Origin: Candidatus Sysuiplasma jiujiangense
Lineage (GTDB): Archaea > Thermoplasmatota > Thermoplasmata > Sysuiplasmatales > Sysuiplasmataceae
Direction: 5' to 3'
Length of the DNA stretch: 64,000 bases
Assembly: GCA_019721075.1 (NCBI GenBank)
Contig: JAHEAD010000012.1
Coordinates: 1-64,000 of the forward strand
In this document: piece after piece, positions 32,240 to 54,338 of the stretch
How the letters are laid out: each line of letters opens with the position of its first letter
Numbering within the stretch: the first letter of the stretch is position 1
Translations under genes and position numbers: made by a program
Notes under the pieces: model-generated
What the model saw: the letters and a program-made list of their open reading frames with translations, nothing else
What the model was told of the DNA's origin: nothing
Database searches by the model: none

Positions 32240-33295
32240 CTAGAAAAAATGAACAGGGATACCCAGATTGGAGAGAAGCGGATATAGAAGCAGGCCCGCA
32301 ATGTATAACCAGCCGAAGAGCTTTTCGTGCAGAAGCGCCTGGCGGTGATACCATAACGGCCATCCGACATAACCGGGCGGCGGTTCAGACGGCCTGCTCT
32401 TCCTTATCACACTAAATGATTTCAGGAGACTGCTGATGTTTATAAAAACCAGAAGAAGCGTGAAAGGCAGCAGAAGGAATATCGCGGAAATGGCGACTGT
32501 TGCGTACATCGCCACCATAGAGAAGAGGAGCATTGCCCGTGACCAGTATTCGCCCAGTCTTACCGGCAGAGTGCCTATGCCTTTCTTGCTGTCAAAGGGC
32601 ATCTGGTCGATATGCTTGCCAATCAAAACAGACATAACACCAAGCCCGAACGGGACGCTTGCCAGAACAACCGAAAGATTGATTGTACCGGTAATTGCGT
32701 AGAATCCGCCTGCAATCATCAATGGTCCCCAGACAACGAAAGAGGAGATTTCTCCGAGGCCCATCATCTTGAGAGATACTGAAGAAACGTCATACAGCGC
32801 CAGAAAAATCACACCAGCCAGTATCAGTATAAACGCGCCTGTGCCTCTCAGGAGCAGAAAATAAGCAGCAATGGAAAGCAGAACCGCTGAAATAACGAAC
32901 AATGTTACCACCATCTCCCCCATGCTCACGATTCCGTCAGCGATTGGATGGAGTGTGTACCTCCTTCGAGGAGAATCTGGTGAATCATGGCCGTACCTGA
33001 ATCCGAAGTAATCGTTCAGAAGATTGCTCTCCGTGTGAAGCAGAACAAATGACAGCAGTATGAGCAAGAAATTCAGTAAGCTGAATGATTTGAAAATATA
33101 AGCCAGCAATCCGCTGATTACGGCCGCCTGAAATGATATTACCAGAATTGTGCTTCTCATTGAATAGAGCATTCTTGTAACAAAGTCGTTCGAAGTCTTT
33201 GAACTGCCTTTGTCGTAAAAACCTCGGAAGGCATTTGACCATGAAACCATCCTGTGCTTCACCCCATCCCGGGAAACTGGCGTATCCGCTTTCAT
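32240..33295 (-). CDS. UbiA-family prenyltransferase (MenA-like)
   Basis: A polytopic membrane prenyltransferase, 351 aa. The two Asp-rich motifs are SNLLNDYFGFRYGHD (NxxxD) and GKHIDQMPFDSKKGIGTLP. The second, with DxxxD-KKGI-T-P-V-R-LG, resembles 1,4-dihydroxy-2-naphthoate prenyltransferases (MenA) more than heme O synthase. About eight helices surround them. It could prenylate a menaquinone-type precursor, but lipid or other aromatic acceptors are possible. It overlaps the 3' end of the GNAT-acyl-CoA synthetase gene by four bases, so they are co-transcribed. Confidence 0.85.
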   Translation of the reverse strand: MKADTPVSRDGVKHRMVSWSNAFRGFYDKGSSKTSNDFVTRMLYSMRSTILVISFQAAVISGLLAYIFKSFSLLNFLLILLSFVLLHTESNLLNDYFGFRYGHDSPDSPRRRYTLHPIADGIVSMGEMVVTLFVISAVLLSIAAYFLLLRGTGAFILILAGVIFLALYDVSSVSLKMMGLGEISSFVVWGPLMIAGGFYAITGTINLSVVLASVPFGLGVMSVLIGKHIDQMPFDSKKGIGTLPVRLGEYWSRAMLLFSMVAMYATVAISAIFLLLPFTLLLVFINISSLLKSFSVIRKSRPSEPPPGYVGWPLWYHRQALLHEKLFGWLYIAGLLLYPLLSNLGIPVHFF

Positions 33296-36024
33296 GAAAA
33301 TTGCTCGCCATCCCCGTCCGACAATGCTGGATTCCTCTTCATGCCGAAAATTCCATACCTTTCCACTTTCTGGATTCTAATACGTGTATCCACGATGCTT
33401 AATCCCTTGCCCTCGTCATGGACAATCACAGGGTTCATATCCATCTCAAATATCTCAGGCACATCTCTGACCAGAGAACCGATACGGACAATGAGATCGT
33501 TGAATGCACTGACATCCTTCTTTGTGTTTCCCCTGAATCCGGTCAACAGAGGATAAGATTTGAGAGAGCTTATCATGGAGAAGGCGTCGGAGTCGGAGAT
33601 CGGAGGCAGCCTGATAGATATGTCCTTAAAAAGTTCTACCGAAGTGCCGCCGTAACCGCATGCAACTACGGGACCGAAAGTTCCGTCGTTTGTTACACCG
33701 ACAAACATTTCCGTGCCCTCCGCTGCCATCGGCTGTATAAGGAAACCCGCTGTCTTTTTACCCTTCGATTCTATTTCACTCTTCATAATCTCCGCTTCCT
33801 GAGCGACTACAGACGCTTCGAGATTGACCCTGACACCGCCGACATCGCTTTTGTGTATAACCTCCGGGGAGATTATTTTAAGAGCGACTCTGCCTCCGAA
33901 TTTATTTGCCGCCTGAGCTGCTTCTAATGGAGTCTTGCACTCAGCATACTCGGAGATTTCGATGTTATACGAAGATAGCAGCCTTCTAATTTCGTCTAGA
34001 TTCAACCACTCTCTGCCTGCCGCAAGAGCAGAGGAGATGACAGATGCCACCTGATCTATCTTGCCGCCGGGGACAGGCGGGTAATTGCCTTTAGGTGATT
34101 TCTTCCATATTGCATATTCATTGACTTTGGCAAGCGCATTGACAGCCTCTTCGGGAAAATGGAACGACGGTATACGCCTCCTGTCTGATGAAAGAATATC
34201 AGCCACCCCTTTCGATGCTATGAAAACGCTGATAATAGTCGTTTCAGGATGGGCGGCGGCAGCCTCCAGAATGTGGCGGGAAACGTCCTCCGCCCTTACC
34301 ATGATCGGAGGTACGAATATCACTATTACACTCCCGACCTTTTCTTCCTGACAGACTATGGAGATTGCCTTGAAATAATCCTCTGGAAGAGCACCGGCAC
34401 TCATATCCACGGGATTGCGTATCGAGGCAAGGGGAGAAAGGGAGGAACGGAGTTTTTCTGTCGTATCTGTAGAAAAACTGACAACTTCGAGACCCGACAG
34501 TTCGCATGCATCCGCCGCCAGGATCCCTGCACCTCCTGCATTTGTGACAATAGCGACTCCCTTGCTTTTCGGAAGAGGCTGTGTCGAGAGTATCGATGCA
34601 ATGTCGAACACTTCTCCCAGCGTCTCGGCACGCAGGACACCCGTCTGCCTGAACAGGGTATCCACGGTGATATCAGAACCGGAGACAATCGAACCCGTAT
34701 GACTGAGGGCAGCTCTGGAACCAGCCCTGCTTCTACCGCTCTTTACAGCAACGATGGGTTTTGAGAGCGAGACCTTTCTGGCAATAGAAGCGAATTTCCT
34801 CGGATTGCCAAATGATTCCAGATACATCAAAATTACGGCCGTTCTGTCGTCATGTGCCCAGAATTCAAGAAGATCGTTCCCTGAGATGTCAGCCTTGTTT
34901 CCGGTCGAGATGAATTGAGAAAGACCAAGACCAAGACTGTTCATTTCTGCCATTACTGCGATGCCGAGTGCTCCCGACTGCGAAAAGAAACCGATGTTGC
35001 CCGGTGAAACATGAATCGGTGCGAACTGTGCGTTCAGGCTCACTGCGGGATCTGAATTCAGGTAACCCATACAATTGGGTCCTATGAGTCGGACACCATG
35101 ATCAAGACATAGCCTGTAAAGTTCCTCCTGCATTTTTTTGCCATTTTCAGTGCCCATTTCAGCAAAACCCGACGAAATCACCACTATTGTTTTGACACCT
35201 TTGGAAAAGCTCTGGAGTGCGACATCCCTCACGTATTTTGCCGGAACTGCGATTATGGCTACGTCAAGATCGACAGGGCAGTCTGAAACTGTCCTGTAAG
35301 AATGCATCGCCTGTACGGATTCATATTCATTGTTTACAGGATAAACCACCCCTGTGAAACCTCCCTCAACTATGTTTCGGAGCAGTTGCCATCCGATTGT
35401 TCCCTTCTTTGTTGAAGCGCCGACAACAGCAATGCGTTTTGCCTCAAAGAGAGCTTTCAATGCATTGCGTGCAGAAACCATCTCCATAGTTTCGAAAATG
35501 CGCCTGCTCTCTTCCGTGTTTGAGGGCGAAAATCGAATATCAATGACACCCGCATTTATGCTCAGCTTATATGGATAGCCAAGCTTTTCAATCAATTTGA
35601 GTAGAGTGGTATTGTCCGGAAGCACTGATGCCGTTACCTCACTGAATCCTTGTTCATTGGCATAGGAGATAGCTGCCTGTACAAGAATTGTGCCTATCCC
35701 TCTTCCCGCATATTTATCAGAGACGACAACATAAATTCTCCCTTGTCTGGAACCATCGGTGATTTCTGGAATAAGCAGCACGTGGCCAGCTACAACCTCT
35801 TCCCTGATGGCTATGAAGGCGATCTCGCCTTTCTCCGCCGGTATGAGGCTGACGATCAACTCATCTGCAGAACTGAATTTATCGAAGAACCGCTGCTTGA
35901 ATGATTCTGCGGAGAGGGTGGAAACAAAAGCCGAAAGTCTCTGCCTGTCGGAAGGTGTAACATGTTTGACTTCAATCAGCGAACCGTCCTTCAAAGACGC
36001 TGTGAATAAATGTTCTCCGGACAT
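33292..36024 (-). CDS. GNAT acetyltransferase fused to ADP-forming acyl-CoA synthetase
   Basis: A 910-residue fusion. Residues 1-165 are a GNAT domain (VVVSDKYAGRGIGTILVQAA, acetyl-CoA loop). Then come a CoA-binding domain (RIAVVGASTKKGTIGWQLLRN), the ligase region (IGFFSQSGALGIAVMAEM), a phosphohistidine loop ALSHTGSIVSGSD with H442 present, and a C-terminal ATP-grasp domain (LALKIISPEVIHKSDVGGV; ACGYGGTSVELFKDI). Bacterial Pat lysine acetyltransferases have this architecture, but their synthetase part is usually inactive. The His retained here suggests the synthetase still makes acyl-CoA with ADP release, as in archaeal acetate formation. The GNAT may act on the same or another protein. Confidence 0.9.
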   Translation of the reverse strand: MSGEHLFTASLKDGSLIEVKHVTPSDRQRLSAFVSTLSAESFKQRFFDKFSSADELIVSLIPAEKGEIAFIAIREEVVAGHVLLIPEITDGSRQGRIYVVVSDKYAGRGIGTILVQAAISYANEQGFSEVTASVLPDNTTLLKLIEKLGYPYKLSINAGVIDIRFSPSNTEESRRIFETMEMVSARNALKALFEAKRIAVVGASTKKGTIGWQLLRNIVEGGFTGVVYPVNNEYESVQAMHSYRTVSDCPVDLDVAIIAVPAKYVRDVALQSFSKGVKTIVVISSGFAEMGTENGKKMQEELYRLCLDHGVRLIGPNCMGYLNSDPAVSLNAQFAPIHVSPGNIGFFSQSGALGIAVMAEMNSLGLGLSQFISTGNKADISGNDLLEFWAHDDRTAVILMYLESFGNPRKFASIARKVSLSKPIVAVKSGRSRAGSRAALSHTGSIVSGSDITVDTLFRQTGVLRAETLGEVFDIASILSTQPLPKSKGVAIVTNAGGAGILAADACELSGLEVVSFSTDTTEKLRSSLSPLASIRNPVDMSAGALPEDYFKAISIVCQEEKVGSVIVIFVPPIMVRAEDVSRHILEAAAAHPETTIISVFIASKGVADILSSDRRRIPSFHFPEEAVNALAKVNEYAIWKKSPKGNYPPVPGGKIDQVASVISSALAAGREWLNLDEIRRLLSSYNIEISEYAECKTPLEAAQAANKFGGRVALKIISPEVIHKSDVGGVRVNLEASVVAQEAEIMKSEIESKGKKTAGFLIQPMAAEGTEMFVGVTNDGTFGPVVACGYGGTSVELFKDISIRLPPISDSDAFSMISSLKSYPLLTGFRGNTKKDVSAFNDLIVRIGSLVRDVPEIFEMDMNPVIVHDEGKGLSIVDTRIRIQKVERYGIFGMKRNPALSDGDGEQFS

Positions 36025-45145: not shown

Positions 45146-45204
45146 AGTGTGTTCCCCAGAGGATGACTGATGGGCATTTAACAATATTACAGTGTTGCAT
45201 GCAT

Positions 45205-46236
45205 ATGAGCATTGATGGCTGTCCATACATAGATTTGCGACCATTACCCTCTGTGCTGACGAACGAGCAGTTCGAACGTTTTCACAATGAGTTCGATTTC
45301 CTTGTGAAGAAGTACAGGGAACAGTACTCCAGGCACACCGGAAGAGACCGGAGTGCATATGAGCGGTCATATGAACAGAGAATCAGGCATGCAGCAGCTG
45401 AAGTGTACTCTGTCGTGAAGAGTGCGTCATCAATCATATTCTCTACGGACGACCGCATGGGCAGGCCGCCGAAGGTGACGCCTGAACAGAAGGTTGCCAT
45501 ACTGCTGCTGAAGGAGATATTCTCACTGAGCAACAGGAAGATGTCCGGACTGCTGTCGCTGTTCGGTCCGCTGACAGACATAGACATATGCTACAAAACA
45601 GTGGAAAGGGCATACTCCAGCCTGCCGGTCAGGCTCATAATACACAACATGTTCATTCTCCTTGCCTCCGGTACAGGAGGCAACCTGACCGGCGACGGCA
45701 CCGGCTGCTCCCTGTCGATAACGCGTCACTACCGTTCCATGCGAGTGAACGGCAACTGCATAAAGACAAATCCAGACCACAGGCTCTTCGTATATGCGTT
45801 CGCAATACTCGACCTGGGCACAAAACTCTATGTTGCCTACGGCGTGAGCATTAAGCCTGAGAAGGATGCATACCGCGAAGCGCTCAGGATGCTCGGCATC
45901 ACAGTGAGGGATGCCGGGAGCATCCGCCTCGACCAGTATTACTGCACACAGTACACACTGGACGACTTCTCTGAAGGAACAAAAGTGTTCGTAATACCCA
46001 GAAGCAGCACAACAATCAGGGAACCGCCTGCATGGAAGGAACTCATCGGCAGACTCATCGACTCGCCGATGGAGTTCCTTTCCGAATACTACAGGAGGGA
46101 GAACTCGGAGTCTCAGTTCTCCGCGGACAAAAGGACAACGGGATGGCGAATACAGCAGAGAAGAGAGGAAAGGATCAGGACGGCTGCCATGTGCAAGGGC
46201 ACATGGCATAATCTGTTCAACATGACTTCCGGATAG
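45205..46236 (+). CDS. transposase (DDE type)
   Basis: About 343 aa from ATG 45205 (an earlier ATG at 45163 is possible). The N-terminal helical region contains RPPKVTPEQKVAILLLKEIF, a helix-turn-helix-like segment. The catalytic core shows GNLTGDGTGCSLS (first Asp), FAILDLGTKLYVAYG, SIRLDQYYC (second Asp) and a C-terminal helix YYRRENSESQFSADKR (candidate Glu), a DDE arrangement. ATTTAACAATATTA about 30 bp upstream of ATG 45205 could be its TATA box, supporting this start. It lies within the inverted repeats of the element. The IS family is not certain. Confidence 0.8.
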   Translation: MSIDGCPYIDLRPLPSVLTNEQFERFHNEFDFLVKKYREQYSRHTGRDRSAYERSYEQRIRHAAAEVYSVVKSASSIIFSTDDRMGRPPKVTPEQKVAILLLKEIFSLSNRKMSGLLSLFGPLTDIDICYKTVERAYSSLPVRLIIHNMFILLASGTGGNLTGDGTGCSLSITRHYRSMRVNGNCIKTNPDHRLFVYAFAILDLGTKLYVAYGVSIKPEKDAYREALRMLGITVRDAGSIRLDQYYCTQYTLDDFSEGTKVFVIPRSSTTIREPPAWKELIGRLIDSPMEFLSEYYRRENSESQFSADKRTTGWRIQQRREERIRTAAMCKGTWHNLFNMTSG

Positions 46237-46350: not shown

Positions 46351-46719
46351 GTGACGCTGAAAGTCAGAAATGTGTTTGAAATTGAACATGAAACCGAAAT
46401 AAGCCATGGAGGGATTGGTCTTCTTGAAAAAGTCAGAGCGTTCACATCGGACGATTTCGAATCTCAAATTGCATTCATCGATTATGTGGTGGTCCCGCCT
46501 GGAACCACAGTGGGATACCACAGGCACGGCAACGACGAAGAAGTCTATTTCATCATCGAGGGGAGTGGTATCATGAGAGATGAGAATTCGGAAATAGCGG
46601 TTAAGAAGGGGGACATCATACTGAACACCAGATATGGTTCTCATGGTTTATCCAATAACACCAACGATAATATAGTCATTCTAATCCTTGAAGTAGCATG
46701 TGACCGGACTGAAAGTTGA
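46351..46719 (+). CDS. small cupin protein
   Basis: A 122-residue single-domain cupin. The first metal motif GTTVGYHRHGNDEEVYFIIEG has the H-x-H-x4-E ligands. The second has GDIILNTRYGSHGLSN with a further His, so a metal site is likely complete. The start is GTG 46351 after AAAGGTGAC. The next gene overlaps its end by 20 bp, so it is translationally linked to the sugar phosphate cyclase. Cupins in sugar pathways act as isomerases, epimerases or binding proteins; an epimerase or isomerase role on the cyclitol product is inferred from context only. Confidence 0.88.
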   Translation: MTLKVRNVFEIEHETEISHGGIGLLEKVRAFTSDDFESQIAFIDYVVVPPGTTVGYHRHGNDEEVYFIIEGSGIMRDENSEIAVKKGDIILNTRYGSHGLSNNTNDNIVILILEVACDRTES

Positions 46720-47908
46720 TTCTAATTCTGCGGCTACGGAAGTCATAACACTTTCAGAAAGCGGAAACAGGATTTCAGTGAAAAACGGATTCGACTACTC
46801 CTACGATGTGCTGTTCACGGAGGAAGATATTTTTTCCACAGACAGTCTACTCCTGCACGATGTAATCGACAGACACAGATGCCTTGTTGTGGTGAGTGAG
46901 ACGGTCAACAAGCTTTATGGCAGTAAAATAGCGGACTATTTCCGCCACTGGTCAGGAAATGAAACTTTCAGGATACTGCCGCTTCCTATCAGCGAGAACA
47001 TAAAGAATATAGAAACTGTCATGAGGATATGCAAGGAGGGGAAAAGATTTGGCCTTGACAGGAAATCACTTTTCATCGCAATAGGAGGAGGTGTTCTGAT
47101 GGACACAGTGGGCCTCGCATCCTCGATATACATGCGGAAATTGAATTTTGTGAGAATACCTACGACACTGGTAGGACAGGTGGATGCAGGCATAGGACTG
47201 AAGACAGGCGTAGATTTTGAAGGCAGGAAAAATTTTATAGGTTCATTTCACCCTCCAATTTGCGTTCTTAATGACTTCAGATTTCTGCGCACACTCAATG
47301 CGGAAGAAATAAGAAACGGACTGGCAGAGATAGTAAAGATGGCGATTATTTCCGATTCCGAATTGTTTTCAGCGCTAGAGACCAACAGCAAAAGAATCGT
47401 TAACTGCTATATGAGCGGATCCGATACCGCATTCACACAGTGGATAAACCTCACTGCGGCAAGAAGAATGCTGGAGCAGCTTCAGGCAAATCCTTATGAG
47501 AAAGAGCTTGAACGATTGGTGGACCTCGGGCATACCTTCAGCCCATTTATTGAAATGTACACACGGCACAGTATCAAGCATGGTCGGGCAGTTGCAATTG
47601 ATATAGCCATTTCAACCGAAATAGCCTGCCTCATCGGCAGAATAGACACGCAGTTACATGACAGGATTCTGTCGATGCTTGCTGCTCTTGGGTTCAATCT
47701 TCATGATGTCAAAGCATTCGAGGCCGAGCGCATGTGGCAGTCACTCGATTCGATTATTCTTCGGAGGGGAGGGAAACTGAATCTTGTTATACCAACCGGT
47801 ATCGGAACAGCCGGGTTCTTGCGTGAAGCGGAAGAACTGGAAAAAGATATACTCAAACAGGCGATGGCAAATCTCTGCAAGTTTCAGTCCGGAGGACACT
47901 TGAAATGA
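46700..47908 (+). CDS. sedoheptulose 7-phosphate cyclase-like sugar phosphate cyclase (EEVS type)
   Basis: A 402-residue member of the dehydroquinate synthase superfamily. The NAD-binding turn is IGGGVLMDTVGLASS (G129-D135 region), followed by RIPTTLVGQVDAGIGLKTGV, RKNFIGSFHPP, EIRNGLAEIVKMAII and VDLGHTFSPFIEM. The IRNGLAEIVKMA and GHTFSP forms, with GVxMDxVGLAxSxY, match 2-epi-5-epi-valiolone synthases and relatives that cyclise sedoheptulose 7-phosphate, not aroB-type DHQS (GDLAGF, GHTFGHAIE). A metal-site His lies in IKHGRAVAID. The product is probably a C7 cyclitol. Cupin upstream and ROK kinase downstream overlap it, forming one operon. Confidence 0.85.
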   Translation: MTGLKVDSNSAATEVITLSESGNRISVKNGFDYSYDVLFTEEDIFSTDSLLLHDVIDRHRCLVVVSETVNKLYGSKIADYFRHWSGNETFRILPLPISENIKNIETVMRICKEGKRFGLDRKSLFIAIGGGVLMDTVGLASSIYMRKLNFVRIPTTLVGQVDAGIGLKTGVDFEGRKNFIGSFHPPICVLNDFRFLRTLNAEEIRNGLAEIVKMAIISDSELFSALETNSKRIVNCYMSGSDTAFTQWINLTAARRMLEQLQANPYEKELERLVDLGHTFSPFIEMYTRHSIKHGRAVAIDIAISTEIACLIGRIDTQLHDRILSMLAALGFNLHDVKAFEAERMWQSLDSIILRRGGKLNLVIPTGIGTAGFLREAEELEKDILKQAMANLCKFQSGGHLK

Positions 47909-48915
47909 CATTTTCAACACTTGCGGTAGATGTTGGCGGCACATATATGAGGAGTGCAATGGTGGATGGTGATGAACTGATACTGCCAACGAAGAGGAAT
48001 GCTCCCGGATTCAGACTTCACCACGTTCCGCTTGCAGACCTTCAGAATATGTTTATCAGAGAGATGTTAAAGCTCGTGGACTCTTACACAGAAAAAGGTT
48101 TCAGAGTTTCAAGACTGGCGGTGGGCTTTCCGGGACCTATGAAGGATGGAACCGTTTACGGCGCACCAACCCTCTGGGGCGAGATGGATGTCCCGTATCC
48201 GCTTCTTTCCATGTTGAAGAAAGAACTGGGAAATAAGGGTATAACCGACATTGTAACTGTGAATGATGTTACAGCAATGGGCTGGAGCTACCTCACAGAC
48301 AAAAACAGGACATTCTGCATAATTACTGTAAGTTCTGGTATTGGAAACAAGATATTTCATGACGGCCAGGTACTGACGGGGGAGACGGCGATTGGCGGAG
48401 AAATCGGACACTGGTACTGCGGCGATACTTACAGAGAGTTTGTATGTGACTGCGGGAAAAGAGGACATCTTGGGGCAGTTTCCTCCGGAAGGGGTGTGGA
48501 AAAAATAGCCGAAAAACTAAAACCGGAATTCGTCGATGTATCGGAAATTGCCTCGCTGGGACGTATCACAACTGCCGACATAGTGGATGGGATAAAAAAG
48601 GGAGATACGCTTGCTTTGAAAACGTTGAAATTCAGTGTGTCTCCGCTAGCGAGCGCTATCGGCCTCATCAATCTGGCCGCCGGAGTCAACAATTTCATCC
48701 TGGTGGGCGGATTTGCGCTGAGTGGCGGGAAGGCATATGTAGCAACACTCAGGAAAAGTCTCGAACGCCACCGGTTTCATGGACACTTCACGGATGGTGG
48801 CGATGGAATCAATGTGAGACTGGGCGTCGACAATGACTTTCGGGCGCTTGAAGGTCTGGGCAGAATGATGAAAGAACGGGATGCTGCCGGTGCATCTGTC
48901 ATAACTGCAGCTTGA
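47905..48915 (+). CDS. ROK-family sugar/cyclitol kinase
   Basis: A 336-residue kinase of the ROK family. ATP-binding LAVDVGGTYMRSAMVD opens the fold. NDVTAMGWSYL holds the catalytic Asp, GGEIGHWYCG carries the substrate/zinc His, CDCGKRGHLGAVSSGRG is the zinc loop with His in place of the third Cys, and FILVGGFALSGG is the second phosphate loop. The start overlaps the cyclase stop (ATGA). Bacterial C7-cyclitol pathways use glucokinase-like kinases (AcbM, ValC) to phosphorylate the cyclase product, so this is the natural candidate here; glucose or another sugar remains possible. Confidence 0.88.
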   Translation: MTFSTLAVDVGGTYMRSAMVDGDELILPTKRNAPGFRLHHVPLADLQNMFIREMLKLVDSYTEKGFRVSRLAVGFPGPMKDGTVYGAPTLWGEMDVPYPLLSMLKKELGNKGITDIVTVNDVTAMGWSYLTDKNRTFCIITVSSGIGNKIFHDGQVLTGETAIGGEIGHWYCGDTYREFVCDCGKRGHLGAVSSGRGVEKIAEKLKPEFVDVSEIASLGRITTADIVDGIKKGDTLALKTLKFSVSPLASAIGLINLAAGVNNFILVGGFALSGGKAYVATLRKSLERHRFHGHFTDGGDGINVRLGVDNDFRALEGLGRMMKERDAAGASVITAA

Positions 48916-48983
48916 ACAGGAAACTTCTGACCGTTCTTCCATCGTCAAAAAACAGGATTTCGACATTGTTTGCGCAATCATTT

Positions 48984-49943
48984 TCAGTTTATCCTGTGAA
49001 TCACAGGAGAGGATTTATACGCACTTTCAACAAACACGATATCCCTCAGAGCTATCTCGGGGGGCATTGGAACACTCTCATCCCGGGACACGGCATCAAT
49101 GAAACCAGATATGCCTATCCTGAAGGGATTATACGGATCAAACACCTCCTCCTTTCCGTTTACCATAAGATTGCCGAATTTCCTTGGCTGTTTTCGATAT
49201 TCAGGCATCTCGGTAATCCACCCTTCGGTGCCGAGAATTTCCAGCCTCGGCATTGACGGAATTTCATCGAACGCCCATGAATGGATTATGGAACCGAATG
49301 CCCCGCTGGCGAACTTCACAGTCGCAGACAGCGTGTCTTCACCTGCCATTTCAGAGTGGCGCAGATTGAAGCGCATTGCACTTACTTCCACACAATCACC
49401 TCCGACATTGAGGAAGGCGTCGGCGAGATGTATGCCATCATCCACAAATGAGCCGCCACCCATCAGTTCCTGACTGCATCCCCATGGAGTGGGATCGACC
49501 CGCTTGATTTTTGTAAACCTGATTCCGCGTACCTTTCCTATCCTACCTTCATTTATCAGATCACATGCCTTCTTCACCGGTGGTTCGAAAAAGTAATTCT
49601 CAAGGACCATGAATTTCCTGTTGACCGCTTTGGCCTTCCTGATCATTTCGGCTCCTTCCGAAGAGTTCAATGCTATCGGTTTCTCCACAAGGACATGCTT
49701 TCCCATCTCCAACGCCCTCATTGCTGTGTCCTTGTGAAGATAATGTGGAAGCACTATGTCCACAACATCGGAATCTTCCATTGCCTTTGACATGCTGCTG
49801 TACGGAACAGCGTTGTATTTTTTGCTGTCCTCCGACAGAACATTTTCATTTCTATCGTAGACGAGCAAATCCACGTTCATCGATGACAGAATTTCGAGAT
49901 GCACTTTCCCGAAATTATTTCCGCCTATTACAGCAACCTTCAA
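48984..49943 (-). CDS. Gfo/Idh/MocA family oxidoreductase
   Basis: An NAD(P)-dependent dehydrogenase of sugars or inositol-like cyclitols, 319 aa. The Rossmann motif VAVIGGNNFGKVHLE is followed by the catalytic-site Lys in HVLVEKPIAL and the ENYFFEP and GGGSFVDDGIHLAD motif with Asp and His. It converges on the cyclitol cluster, and its stop is 68 bp from the ROK kinase stop. It starts at TTG 49943 after GATGAGGC. Inositol dehydrogenases belong to this family, so a role in cyclitol oxidation fits. A separate promoter means co-regulation is not shown. Confidence 0.88.
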   Translation of the reverse strand: MKVAVIGGNNFGKVHLEILSSMNVDLLVYDRNENVLSEDSKKYNAVPYSSMSKAMEDSDVVDIVLPHYLHKDTAMRALEMGKHVLVEKPIALNSSEGAEMIRKAKAVNRKFMVLENYFFEPPVKKACDLINEGRIGKVRGIRFTKIKRVDPTPWGCSQELMGGGSFVDDGIHLADAFLNVGGDCVEVSAMRFNLRHSEMAGEDTLSATVKFASGAFGSIIHSWAFDEIPSMPRLEILGTEGWITEMPEYRKQPRKFGNLMVNGKEEVFDPYNPFRIGISGFIDAVSRDESVPMPPEIALRDIVFVESAYKSSPVIHRIN

Positions 49944-53369: not shown

Positions 53370-54338
53370 ATGAAACCTGATACTAACGACGAAGAGCCTC
53401 CACAGATAAGACAGCCAAACGCGTATCCCTTTGACTGGGATTTTGTGGATCGCAGGCTGGCAAGAATATATACCCGTGCGAAGAAGGAACACTGGGATCC
53501 GGAAGAGATAGACTGGGATTCTGTCAATCCCGCCGACTATGACGAGTTGCAGAAGACGGCGATGGCCTACTGGTGGGCTGAACTTGCAAATTTTGAAAAC
53601 AATGCGGCTGCCTCCTTCGCTAAGGCACTTGTCCATGTAACCGTAAATCATTACGATAATGCGACACAGAAAGTCACGGCAACAATTGTGATGGATGAAT
53701 GCAGGCACGACGAAACATGCATGAGGGGGTGCAACAGGCTCTGTCCGAAGTTTCTGAAGGGATGGAAGCCGCGAAACGCGCTTGAAGCAAAAGCACTCAG
53801 GAATATAAGATGGATATACTACAATGGAGGCAGGTACTGGGAAGGATACACCAGATCATATGACAAGTACAGGTTTCCTCTCATTTTCACTTCATTCATG
53901 ATGGGGGAAGCGTGCGCATCGAAGCTCTTCAATGAGATGGCAGGGAAGACCGACCACCCGGCATTTCGGGAAGCATTCAAGCACCTTGCCATGGATGAAT
54001 CAAGGCATCTTGCATATACCTGGTTTGTTCTGGAAGATGCGATACCCACTCTGACCGAAGAAGAGATAATGCTTATCCCCAAGAGATTGAGGCACGGATT
54101 TGTGTATCTCTCAATGATACTTTTCGAGCCACCTGCTGAGTTCTGGGAACTACCCGCGGATTTTATGGATGTGCATAGAAAAATGGAGGATATTGCGGCG
54201 CAGGCGGGCCTGGGCGTTCTTTCGCTTGAGGAGAAGAGGGCGGCATGGAGATCCACTATACTCGAAGTCAAGAGGAAAATAGGGAAGTACGGCCTTCCTT
54301 TCCCCGAACTTCCGGAGATCGACGTGACAGGAACGTGA
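53370..54338 (+). CDS. ferritin-like diiron carboxylate protein (oxygenase-like)
   Basis: A 322-residue helical protein with a full diiron ligand set: E71 (WWAELANFE), E110-x2-H113 (MDECRHDE), E180 (MMGEACAS) and E210-x2-H213 (MDESRHLAY), spaced about 100 residues between the two ExxH motifs as in R2-like enzymes. A start motif WDPEEIDWD and the size resemble soluble diiron oxygenases of the AurF/BoxB/PaaA-like group; the precise subfamily is unclear. Cys-rich CMRGCNRLC near residues 116-124 is unusual. ATG 53370 follows an AT-rich TAGAAATAGGG stretch (leaderless type). It sits upstream of the second oxidase pair. Substrate unknown. Confidence 0.8.
   Translation: MKPDTNDEEPPQIRQPNAYPFDWDFVDRRLARIYTRAKKEHWDPEEIDWDSVNPADYDELQKTAMAYWWAELANFENNAAASFAKALVHVTVNHYDNATQKVTATIVMDECRHDETCMRGCNRLCPKFLKGWKPRNALEAKALRNIRWIYYNGGRYWEGYTRSYDKYRFPLIFTSFMMGEACASKLFNEMAGKTDHPAFREAFKHLAMDESRHLAYTWFVLEDAIPTLTEEEIMLIPKRLRHGFVYLSMILFEPPAEFWELPADFMDVHRKMEDIAAQAGLGVLSLEEKRAAWRSTILEVKRKIGKYGLPFPELPEIDVTGT

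Follow-up and report, generated by a model that had tools for sequence, protein, structure and literature searches.

C7-cyclitol chemistry is known in bacteria and, through 2-epi-5-epi-valiolone synthase (EEVS) and desmethyl-4-deoxygadusol synthase (DDGS), in some eukaryotes, and to our knowledge no pathway of the type considered here has been described in archaea. No archaeal C7-cyclitol pathway was found in the open-licence literature, a search that did not take in the overview of C7-cyclitol synthases published by Osborn and colleagues in 2017, which may mention archaeal sequences. Among the described systems, the acarbose and validamycin pathways use the kinases AcbM and ValC, respectively, which have been described as ROK-like (PMC9200736). 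EEVS also initiates the small cyclitols of the kirkamide and streptol clusters in leaf-nodule Burkholderia, which are bacterial (PMC8599487), and EboD, the cyclase of the ebo operon, belongs to the same sugar phosphate cyclase (SPC) superfamily and is presumed to form a cyclitol from sedoheptulose 7-phosphate (S7P) (PMC5133447). Here, a four-gene cassette encoding a cupin, an SPC, a ROK-family kinase, and a Gfo/Idh/MocA oxidoreductase was analyzed in the genome of Candidatus Sysuiplasma jiujiangense; it lies in a stretch of 64,000 nucleotides (contig JAHEAD010000012.1, positions 1 to 64,000; the window). We give a probability of about two in three to the reading that the cassette encodes a short archaeal pathway to a C7-cyclitol (carba-sugar) phosphate, all of its substrates and products being predicted.

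The SPC (402 aa) was encoded on the forward strand by a gene with a GTG start (46700..47908; Pfam DHQ_synthase, 5.6e-35; DHQS_C, 3e-23), and both motifs quoted for it in an earlier note on this DNA, IRNGLAEIVKMA and GHTFSPFIEM, were found. It scored 238 and 216 bits against the AroB-type equivalogs, below the cut-offs of 333 and 305. Against glycerol-1-phosphate dehydrogenase (NCBIfam PRK00843) it reached 28.9 bits with a cut-off of 413, and this assignment was rejected. The best matches in PDB were the EEVS ValA (2.3e-63) and the DDGS of Anabaena (AvDDGS; 5.5e-63), whereas dehydroquinate synthases (DHQS) reached 4e-43 at best, a gap of about twenty orders of magnitude. ValA and AvDDGS were also ranked first with the predicted structure, the fold of which matched 5tpr and 4p53, and the AlphaFold2 (AF2) model gave TM-scores of 0.82-0.91 to ValA. 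ValA, the best solved relative by sequence, shares with the SPC the fold, the NAD/Zn site residues, the equivalents of its L267 and D281, and the GHxFSP motif, whereas identity is about 36%, the two fall in separate sister clades, the archaeal proteins have Arg for His360, and the activity of the SPC is a prediction.

A residue alignment was made with ValA, DDGS, EboD, DHQS of E. coli, other bacteria, and plants, and AroB from other Thermoplasmata. The SPC kept E210, H278, H294, K168, and N178 and carried the EEVS-type residues N206, L261, D275, and P282. Arg264, Asn268, His275, and Lys356 of DHQS (A. nidulans numbering) were replaced by E, D, P, and L in the archaeal SPCs, namely those of the window and of two congeners, except that the congener G064 still has Arg at the position of R264. 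In a maximum likelihood tree of 48 proteins (22 DHQS; no labelled DOIS, EVS, or aminoDHQS references), the SPC was placed in the S7P-cyclase part, split from DHQS with support of 100/98 and from EboD with 100/100, and a topology that forced the archaeal SPCs together with DHQS was rejected by the approximately unbiased (AU) test (p 4.7e-6). The AroB assignment was thus rejected by the sub-cut-off scores, the replaced DHQS residues, and the AU test, and EboD by its separate clade and by the absence of other ebo genes from the cassette. The protein fell inside neither the AroB nor the glycerol-1-phosphate dehydrogenase clade, in agreement with the earlier note, and sequence comparison supports an S7P-cyclase-type SPC close to EEVS. 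Automatic annotation would mask the cassette under the name '3-dehydroquinate synthase'.

Three archaeal and five Firmicutes SPCs formed their own clade (100/99), in which the archaeal proteins were a clade at 97/92 support. Fingerprint positions were taken from our own alignment of ValA, AvDDGS, and DHQS. At the three positions distinguishing ValA from AvDDGS, the archaeal SPCs have L, D, and R and DDGS has Glu, Ala, and Thr; L261 and D275 match the EEVS fingerprint, and R355, the equivalent of ValA His360, does not. In the Firmicutes sisters, each of these positions, where covered, holds the EEVS residue, with His at the His360 position in four of the proteins. DDGS (PDB 5tpr, mycosporine pathways) belongs to the same S7P-cyclase clade and has a similar fold score, but none of its Glu, Ala, and Thr residues is present and the cassette contains no O-methyltransferase or ATP-grasp partner gene, and the DDGS assignment was rejected. 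An SPC encoded in a plasmid locus of Streptomyces sp. NBC_00467 (L055:7956-10938) has Arg at the His360 position, as in the archaea, and was placed outside the sampled EEVS clade.

All four genes lie where the earlier note had placed them. The cupin gene (46351..46719, forward strand; 122 aa; Pfam Cupin_2, 1.9e-10) overlaps the SPC gene by 20 bases, and the ROK gene (47905..48915, forward strand; 336 aa; Pfam ROK, 6e-27) overlaps it by 4 bases (ATGA, with the ROK start over the SPC stop). Cupin, SPC, and ROK form a real, tightly coupled overlapping operon, which bears out the translational coupling proposed in the earlier note. The Gfo/Idh/MocA gene (48984..49943, reverse strand; 319 aa; Pfam GFO_IDH_MocA, 1.5e-18) is convergent to ROK at a distance of 68 bases and is therefore not co-transcribed with the other three.

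The ROK gene adjoins the SPC gene in the archaea and in most of the linked loci. All of the 11 cyclase-linked ROKs compared carry the motif CxCGxxxH[LIV] where the other ROK of the genome has GCLE, and the Cys and Glu of GCLE are absent from them; in ordinary ROK sugar kinases, these two residues bind zinc and substrate. By analogy with AcbM and ValC, compared by description only, the kinase is likely a C7-cyclitol 7-kinase, and CxCGxxxH may serve as a sequence motif to pick cyclitol kinases among ROK proteins.

The cupin is a small single-domain protein with a complete metal site (HxH..E..H; H57, H59, E64, and H98), the ligands of which did not vary among nine cyclase-linked cupins (archaeal, Firmicutes, and Streptomyces), down to 38% identity. 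The AF2 model (pLDDT 87.6) matched the single-domain cupins TM1287 and TM1459, the DMSP lyase DddK, and archaeal phosphomannose isomerases. No canonical epimerase was encoded in the cassette, and the cupin as the missing epimerase (or isomerase) is a reasonable guess, an unproven candidate; if it holds, cupins would be able to serve a step usually left to other epimerases. Of the parts of a C7-cyclitol cluster, cyclase, kinase, and oxidoreductase are present, and the epimerase slot has the cupin as its only candidate. The combination of cyclase, kinase, epimerase, and dehydrogenase that the earlier note had drawn from bacterial pathways was borne out in its cyclase-kinase core, which matches that of acarbose and validamycin (AcbC/AcbM; PMC9200736), but not in a canonical epimerase. 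Like these C7N-aminocyclitol clusters, the cassette pairs a cyclase with a probable cyclitol kinase of the ROK type and has a likely ring oxidoreductase close by; unlike them, it has no known epimerase, aminotransferase, nucleotidyltransferase, or glycosyltransferase, and has a cupin and a Gfo/Idh/MocA enzyme.

The Gfo/Idh/MocA enzyme likely reduces or oxidises a cyclitol or cyclitol phosphate with NAD(P), and its EKP and DDGxHxxD motifs were unbroken in each of the three species. Its ortholog was found in the three family genomes with the SPC (3/3) and in none of the five without it; the best that these five had was a paralog at about 39% identity, and others gave weaker matches or no match. 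The earlier note had the cyclase facing an inositol-dehydrogenase-type enzyme; the convergent Gfo/Idh/MocA gene is there, but its product was no nearer to inositol dehydrogenases than to other enzymes of the family.

The cassette was present in three of the four sampled members of the genus. The relatives of the source genome include Candidatus Sysuiplasma superficiale (G049) and another Thermoplasmata bin. The order and orientation of the four genes are unchanged in G049 and in G064, where protein identities are 47-62% and 64-77%, respectively; the synteny in related genomes that the earlier note had suggested checking was thus found in two further species. The dN/dS values of about 0.09-0.19 between the source genome and G064 (dS was mostly saturated against G049) show purifying selection on the cassette. 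No flanking ORF of at least 100 codons was common to the three species, and the four genes are therefore the conserved unit; no transporter was conserved with it. The SPC was absent from the fourth congener and from all four sampled sister-genus genomes, and the cassette was not found outside the genus members among 300 genomes of the class and 390 of the phylum. The one other strong match in the phylum (G892) was an ordinary AroB beside trp genes, and no relatives were found in viral contigs. In G064, genes for a class-III aminotransferase and an HTH_10 regulator lie upstream on the strand of the cassette (L046:6356-8535, reverse strand); the aminotransferase, which matches the Firmicutes enzyme only weakly, was rejected as a cassette part, and neither gene is conserved close to the cassette in the remaining two species.

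The closest non-archaeal relatives were from Firmicutes, with SPC sisters of 45-50% identity in [Bacillus] enclensis, two Paenibacillus, Rummeliibacillus, and Eubacterium plexicaudatum (L034-L038). These loci share orthologous cupin, SPC, and ROK genes with the archaea, in the same order in most of them, but they add genes for a class-III aminotransferase and a xylose-isomerase-like TIM barrel, an upstream Zn-dependent dehydrogenase in four of the five, and HAD phosphatases, a NUDIX hydrolase, or a hexapeptide-repeat protein in some; the archaea use the Gfo/Idh/MocA enzyme. Such clusters, in which cupin, SPC, and ROK occur together, probably represent aminocyclitol clusters, and our analysis flags them as rare. 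When 400 genomes from the class to which [Bacillus] enclensis belongs were searched, the query genome itself was the only one with this lineage. Each of the five Firmicutes hosts has, in addition to the sister cyclase, another PF01761 protein. Elsewhere, a linked arrangement of SPC, cupin, and aminotransferase genes was found on the plasmid of Streptomyces sp. NBC_00467 (L055), and SPC-ROK pairs were found in S. clavuligerus, Rhizobium rhizogenes, and Agrobacterium vitis (L054, L056, and L059). For the Firmicutes-type aminotransferase and TIM-barrel isomerase, only generic homologs were found in eight family genomes (at most about 34% and 27% identity, respectively), and the archaeal cassette therefore has no step dedicated to amination.

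Individual Firmicutes loci showed further features. In one Paenibacillus cluster the gene order is shuffled, the SPC following the isomerase gene (L037), and a phosphohexomutase and a GH3 hydrolase are added (L037:7188-10144), which points to a pseudo-sugar resembling a hexosamine and perhaps to an enzyme for self-resistance or release. The Zn-dependent dehydrogenase gene of Rummeliibacillus (L036:2154-5567) is split by a two-gene insertion (transposase-like gene and ATPase), and this cluster may therefore be decaying. In Eubacterium plexicaudatum (L038:6001-9378), the cyclase is frameshifted near the C-terminus and transposase-like genes lie between a ROK remnant and the aminotransferase gene; as judged from its sequence, this is a degenerate cluster.

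The source genome encodes an archaeal-type DHQS-II (PF01959, 1.5e-114), and the shikimate pathway therefore needs no SPC, which is the only PF01761 protein of the genome. Genes for a transaldolase-family protein and a transketolase pyrimidine domain are both contained in 1.6 kb (C2:57873-59441), about 0.5 kb apart, and S7P is therefore plausibly made. In the proposed pathway, modelled on the step order AcbC-AcbM-AcbO-AcbL of acarbose biosynthesis (PMC9200736), the SPC would, with NAD+ and Zn2+, close S7P from the non-oxidative pentose phosphate pathway to a keto-cyclitol (2-epi-5-epi-valiolone or one of its epimers being the likeliest product), and this step is strongly indicated. The metal cupin might then epimerise or isomerise the keto-cyclitol at C2 in place of the actinomycete epimerases, the least secure of the four assignments. 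The ROK kinase would probably phosphorylate the C7 hydroxyl, like AcbM and ValC, and the Gfo/Idh/MocA enzyme would probably reduce the ring ketone to a carba-hexose 6-phosphate analogue of the valiolol or validol 7-phosphate type. The cassette contained no dedicated aminotransferase, glycosyltransferase, or transporter, and the product is therefore probably a solute, a metabolite mimic, or a precursor for general metabolism, not a full acarbose-like compound.

Several observations weigh against this reading. Grouping the archaeal and Firmicutes SPCs with four EEVS-type proteins to the exclusion of DDGS was weakly rejected by the AU test (p 0.012, and p 0.041 when the Streptomyces protein L055 was added), which suggests a lineage sister to EEVS and DDGS that lies outside the sampled EEVS clade. 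All three archaeal SPCs have Arg355 at the position of ValA His360, which is Thr in DDGS. Given the sister-lineage placement and Arg355, the cyclic product may therefore differ from that of EEVS; of the EEVS assignment in the earlier note, closeness to EEVS rather than DHQS stood, and membership in the sampled EEVS clade and the conserved His360 did not. Characterised pathways of the AcbC/ValA type take more genes to reach any known product. No paper combining cupin and valiolone was found in the open-licence literature. The Firmicutes clusters were seen without a Gfo/Idh/MocA gene and with a Zn-dependent dehydrogenase, and the place of the Gfo/Idh/MocA enzyme in the pathway therefore depends on synteny and co-occurrence in only three genomes.

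The cyclase may instead make another S7P-derived ring (2-epi-valiolone, a DDG-like compound, or a new epimer), which would leave a cyclitol pathway without EEVS chemistry. This is the most serious of the alternatives, if clearly the less probable account: the position outside the sampled EEVS clade, R355 shared with the Streptomyces protein, and a cupin instead of a known epimerase speak for it. Against it, of the three positions separating ValA from AvDDGS, two (L261 and D275) agree with EEVS and not one with DDGS, all of those covered in the Firmicutes sisters are of the EEVS type, and the linked ROKs carry the motif of other cyclase-cluster ROKs. A module for salvage or catabolism of a sugar or cyclitol, in which ROK phosphorylates and Gfo/Idh/MocA oxidises an imported sugar and the SPC yields a side metabolite, is improbable. 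The catabolism of sugars and inositol often employs ROK and Gfo/Idh/MocA enzymes, and the Gfo gene is transcribed separately; SPCs, however, catalyse biosynthetic reactions, the archaeal ROK and SPC genes are tightly coupled, most Firmicutes loci have the two side by side, the Glu of GCLE found in ordinary sugar kinases is missing, and the cassette has no conserved transporter.

A divergent DHQS serving the shikimate pathway is very unlikely. The SPC has the PF01761/DHQS_C fold, would be named aroB by annotation pipelines, and is the sole PF01761 protein of the genome, but DHQS-II is present, the DHQS-specific residues are gone, union with DHQS was rejected (p 4.7e-6), both AroB cut-offs were missed, the gene lies away from shikimate genes, and it is missing from the fourth congener and the sampled sister genus. 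Equally slight is the probability that the genes entered the bin as bacterial contamination or were recently transferred and have no function. The nearest non-archaeal relatives are Firmicutes and a transposase-like ORF of unusual GC content at third codon positions (GC3) lies directly upstream; yet the genes occur in three separate bins of one genus and form a supported archaeal clade (97/92), the Gfo partner is archaeal-only, GC and GC3 are near host values, the genes are under purifying selection, and the 92-kb contig carries sulfocyanin and SoxL2 genes.

A C7-cyclitol 7-phosphate pathway common to archaea and Firmicutes is thus the best reading, its chemistry being predicted. Such a cassette would carry C7-cyclitol chemistry to the third domain and would offer a minimal version of the pathway in four small genes for a cyclase, a cupin, a kinase, and a dehydrogenase. 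More tentatively, and with the odds somewhat against it, the SPCs may represent a third, archaeal-bacterial S7P-cyclase lineage, with a cupin standing in for the known epimerases and, in the archaea, a His-to-Arg change at the active site, making an undescribed carba-sugar phosphate that acidophilic archaea use as a solute, metabolite mimic, or glycan precursor; this would be the first archaeal C7-cyclitol pathway.

The host contig (C12) is 91.8 kb in an archaeal genome of 2.29 Mb and 97% completeness; sulfocyanin and SoxL2, encoded on it together with the cassette, are archaeal-type respiratory genes. A transposase-like ORF of 357 aa (window 45163-46236, forward strand) without a Pfam match ends 114 bases before the cupin gene; its GC3 is 0.65, against about 0.5 in its neighbours, and it is possibly a vehicle of the cassette or a later insertion. 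An ORF at 53370-54338 of the window (forward strand), directly upstream of a cytochrome oxidase gene, gave a sub-threshold match (1.4e-5) to the AurF family of di-iron N-oxygenases. Further, an ORF at 33292-36024 of the window (reverse strand) encodes an N-terminal GNAT acetyltransferase domain fused to an acyl-CoA synthetase of the ADP-forming type.

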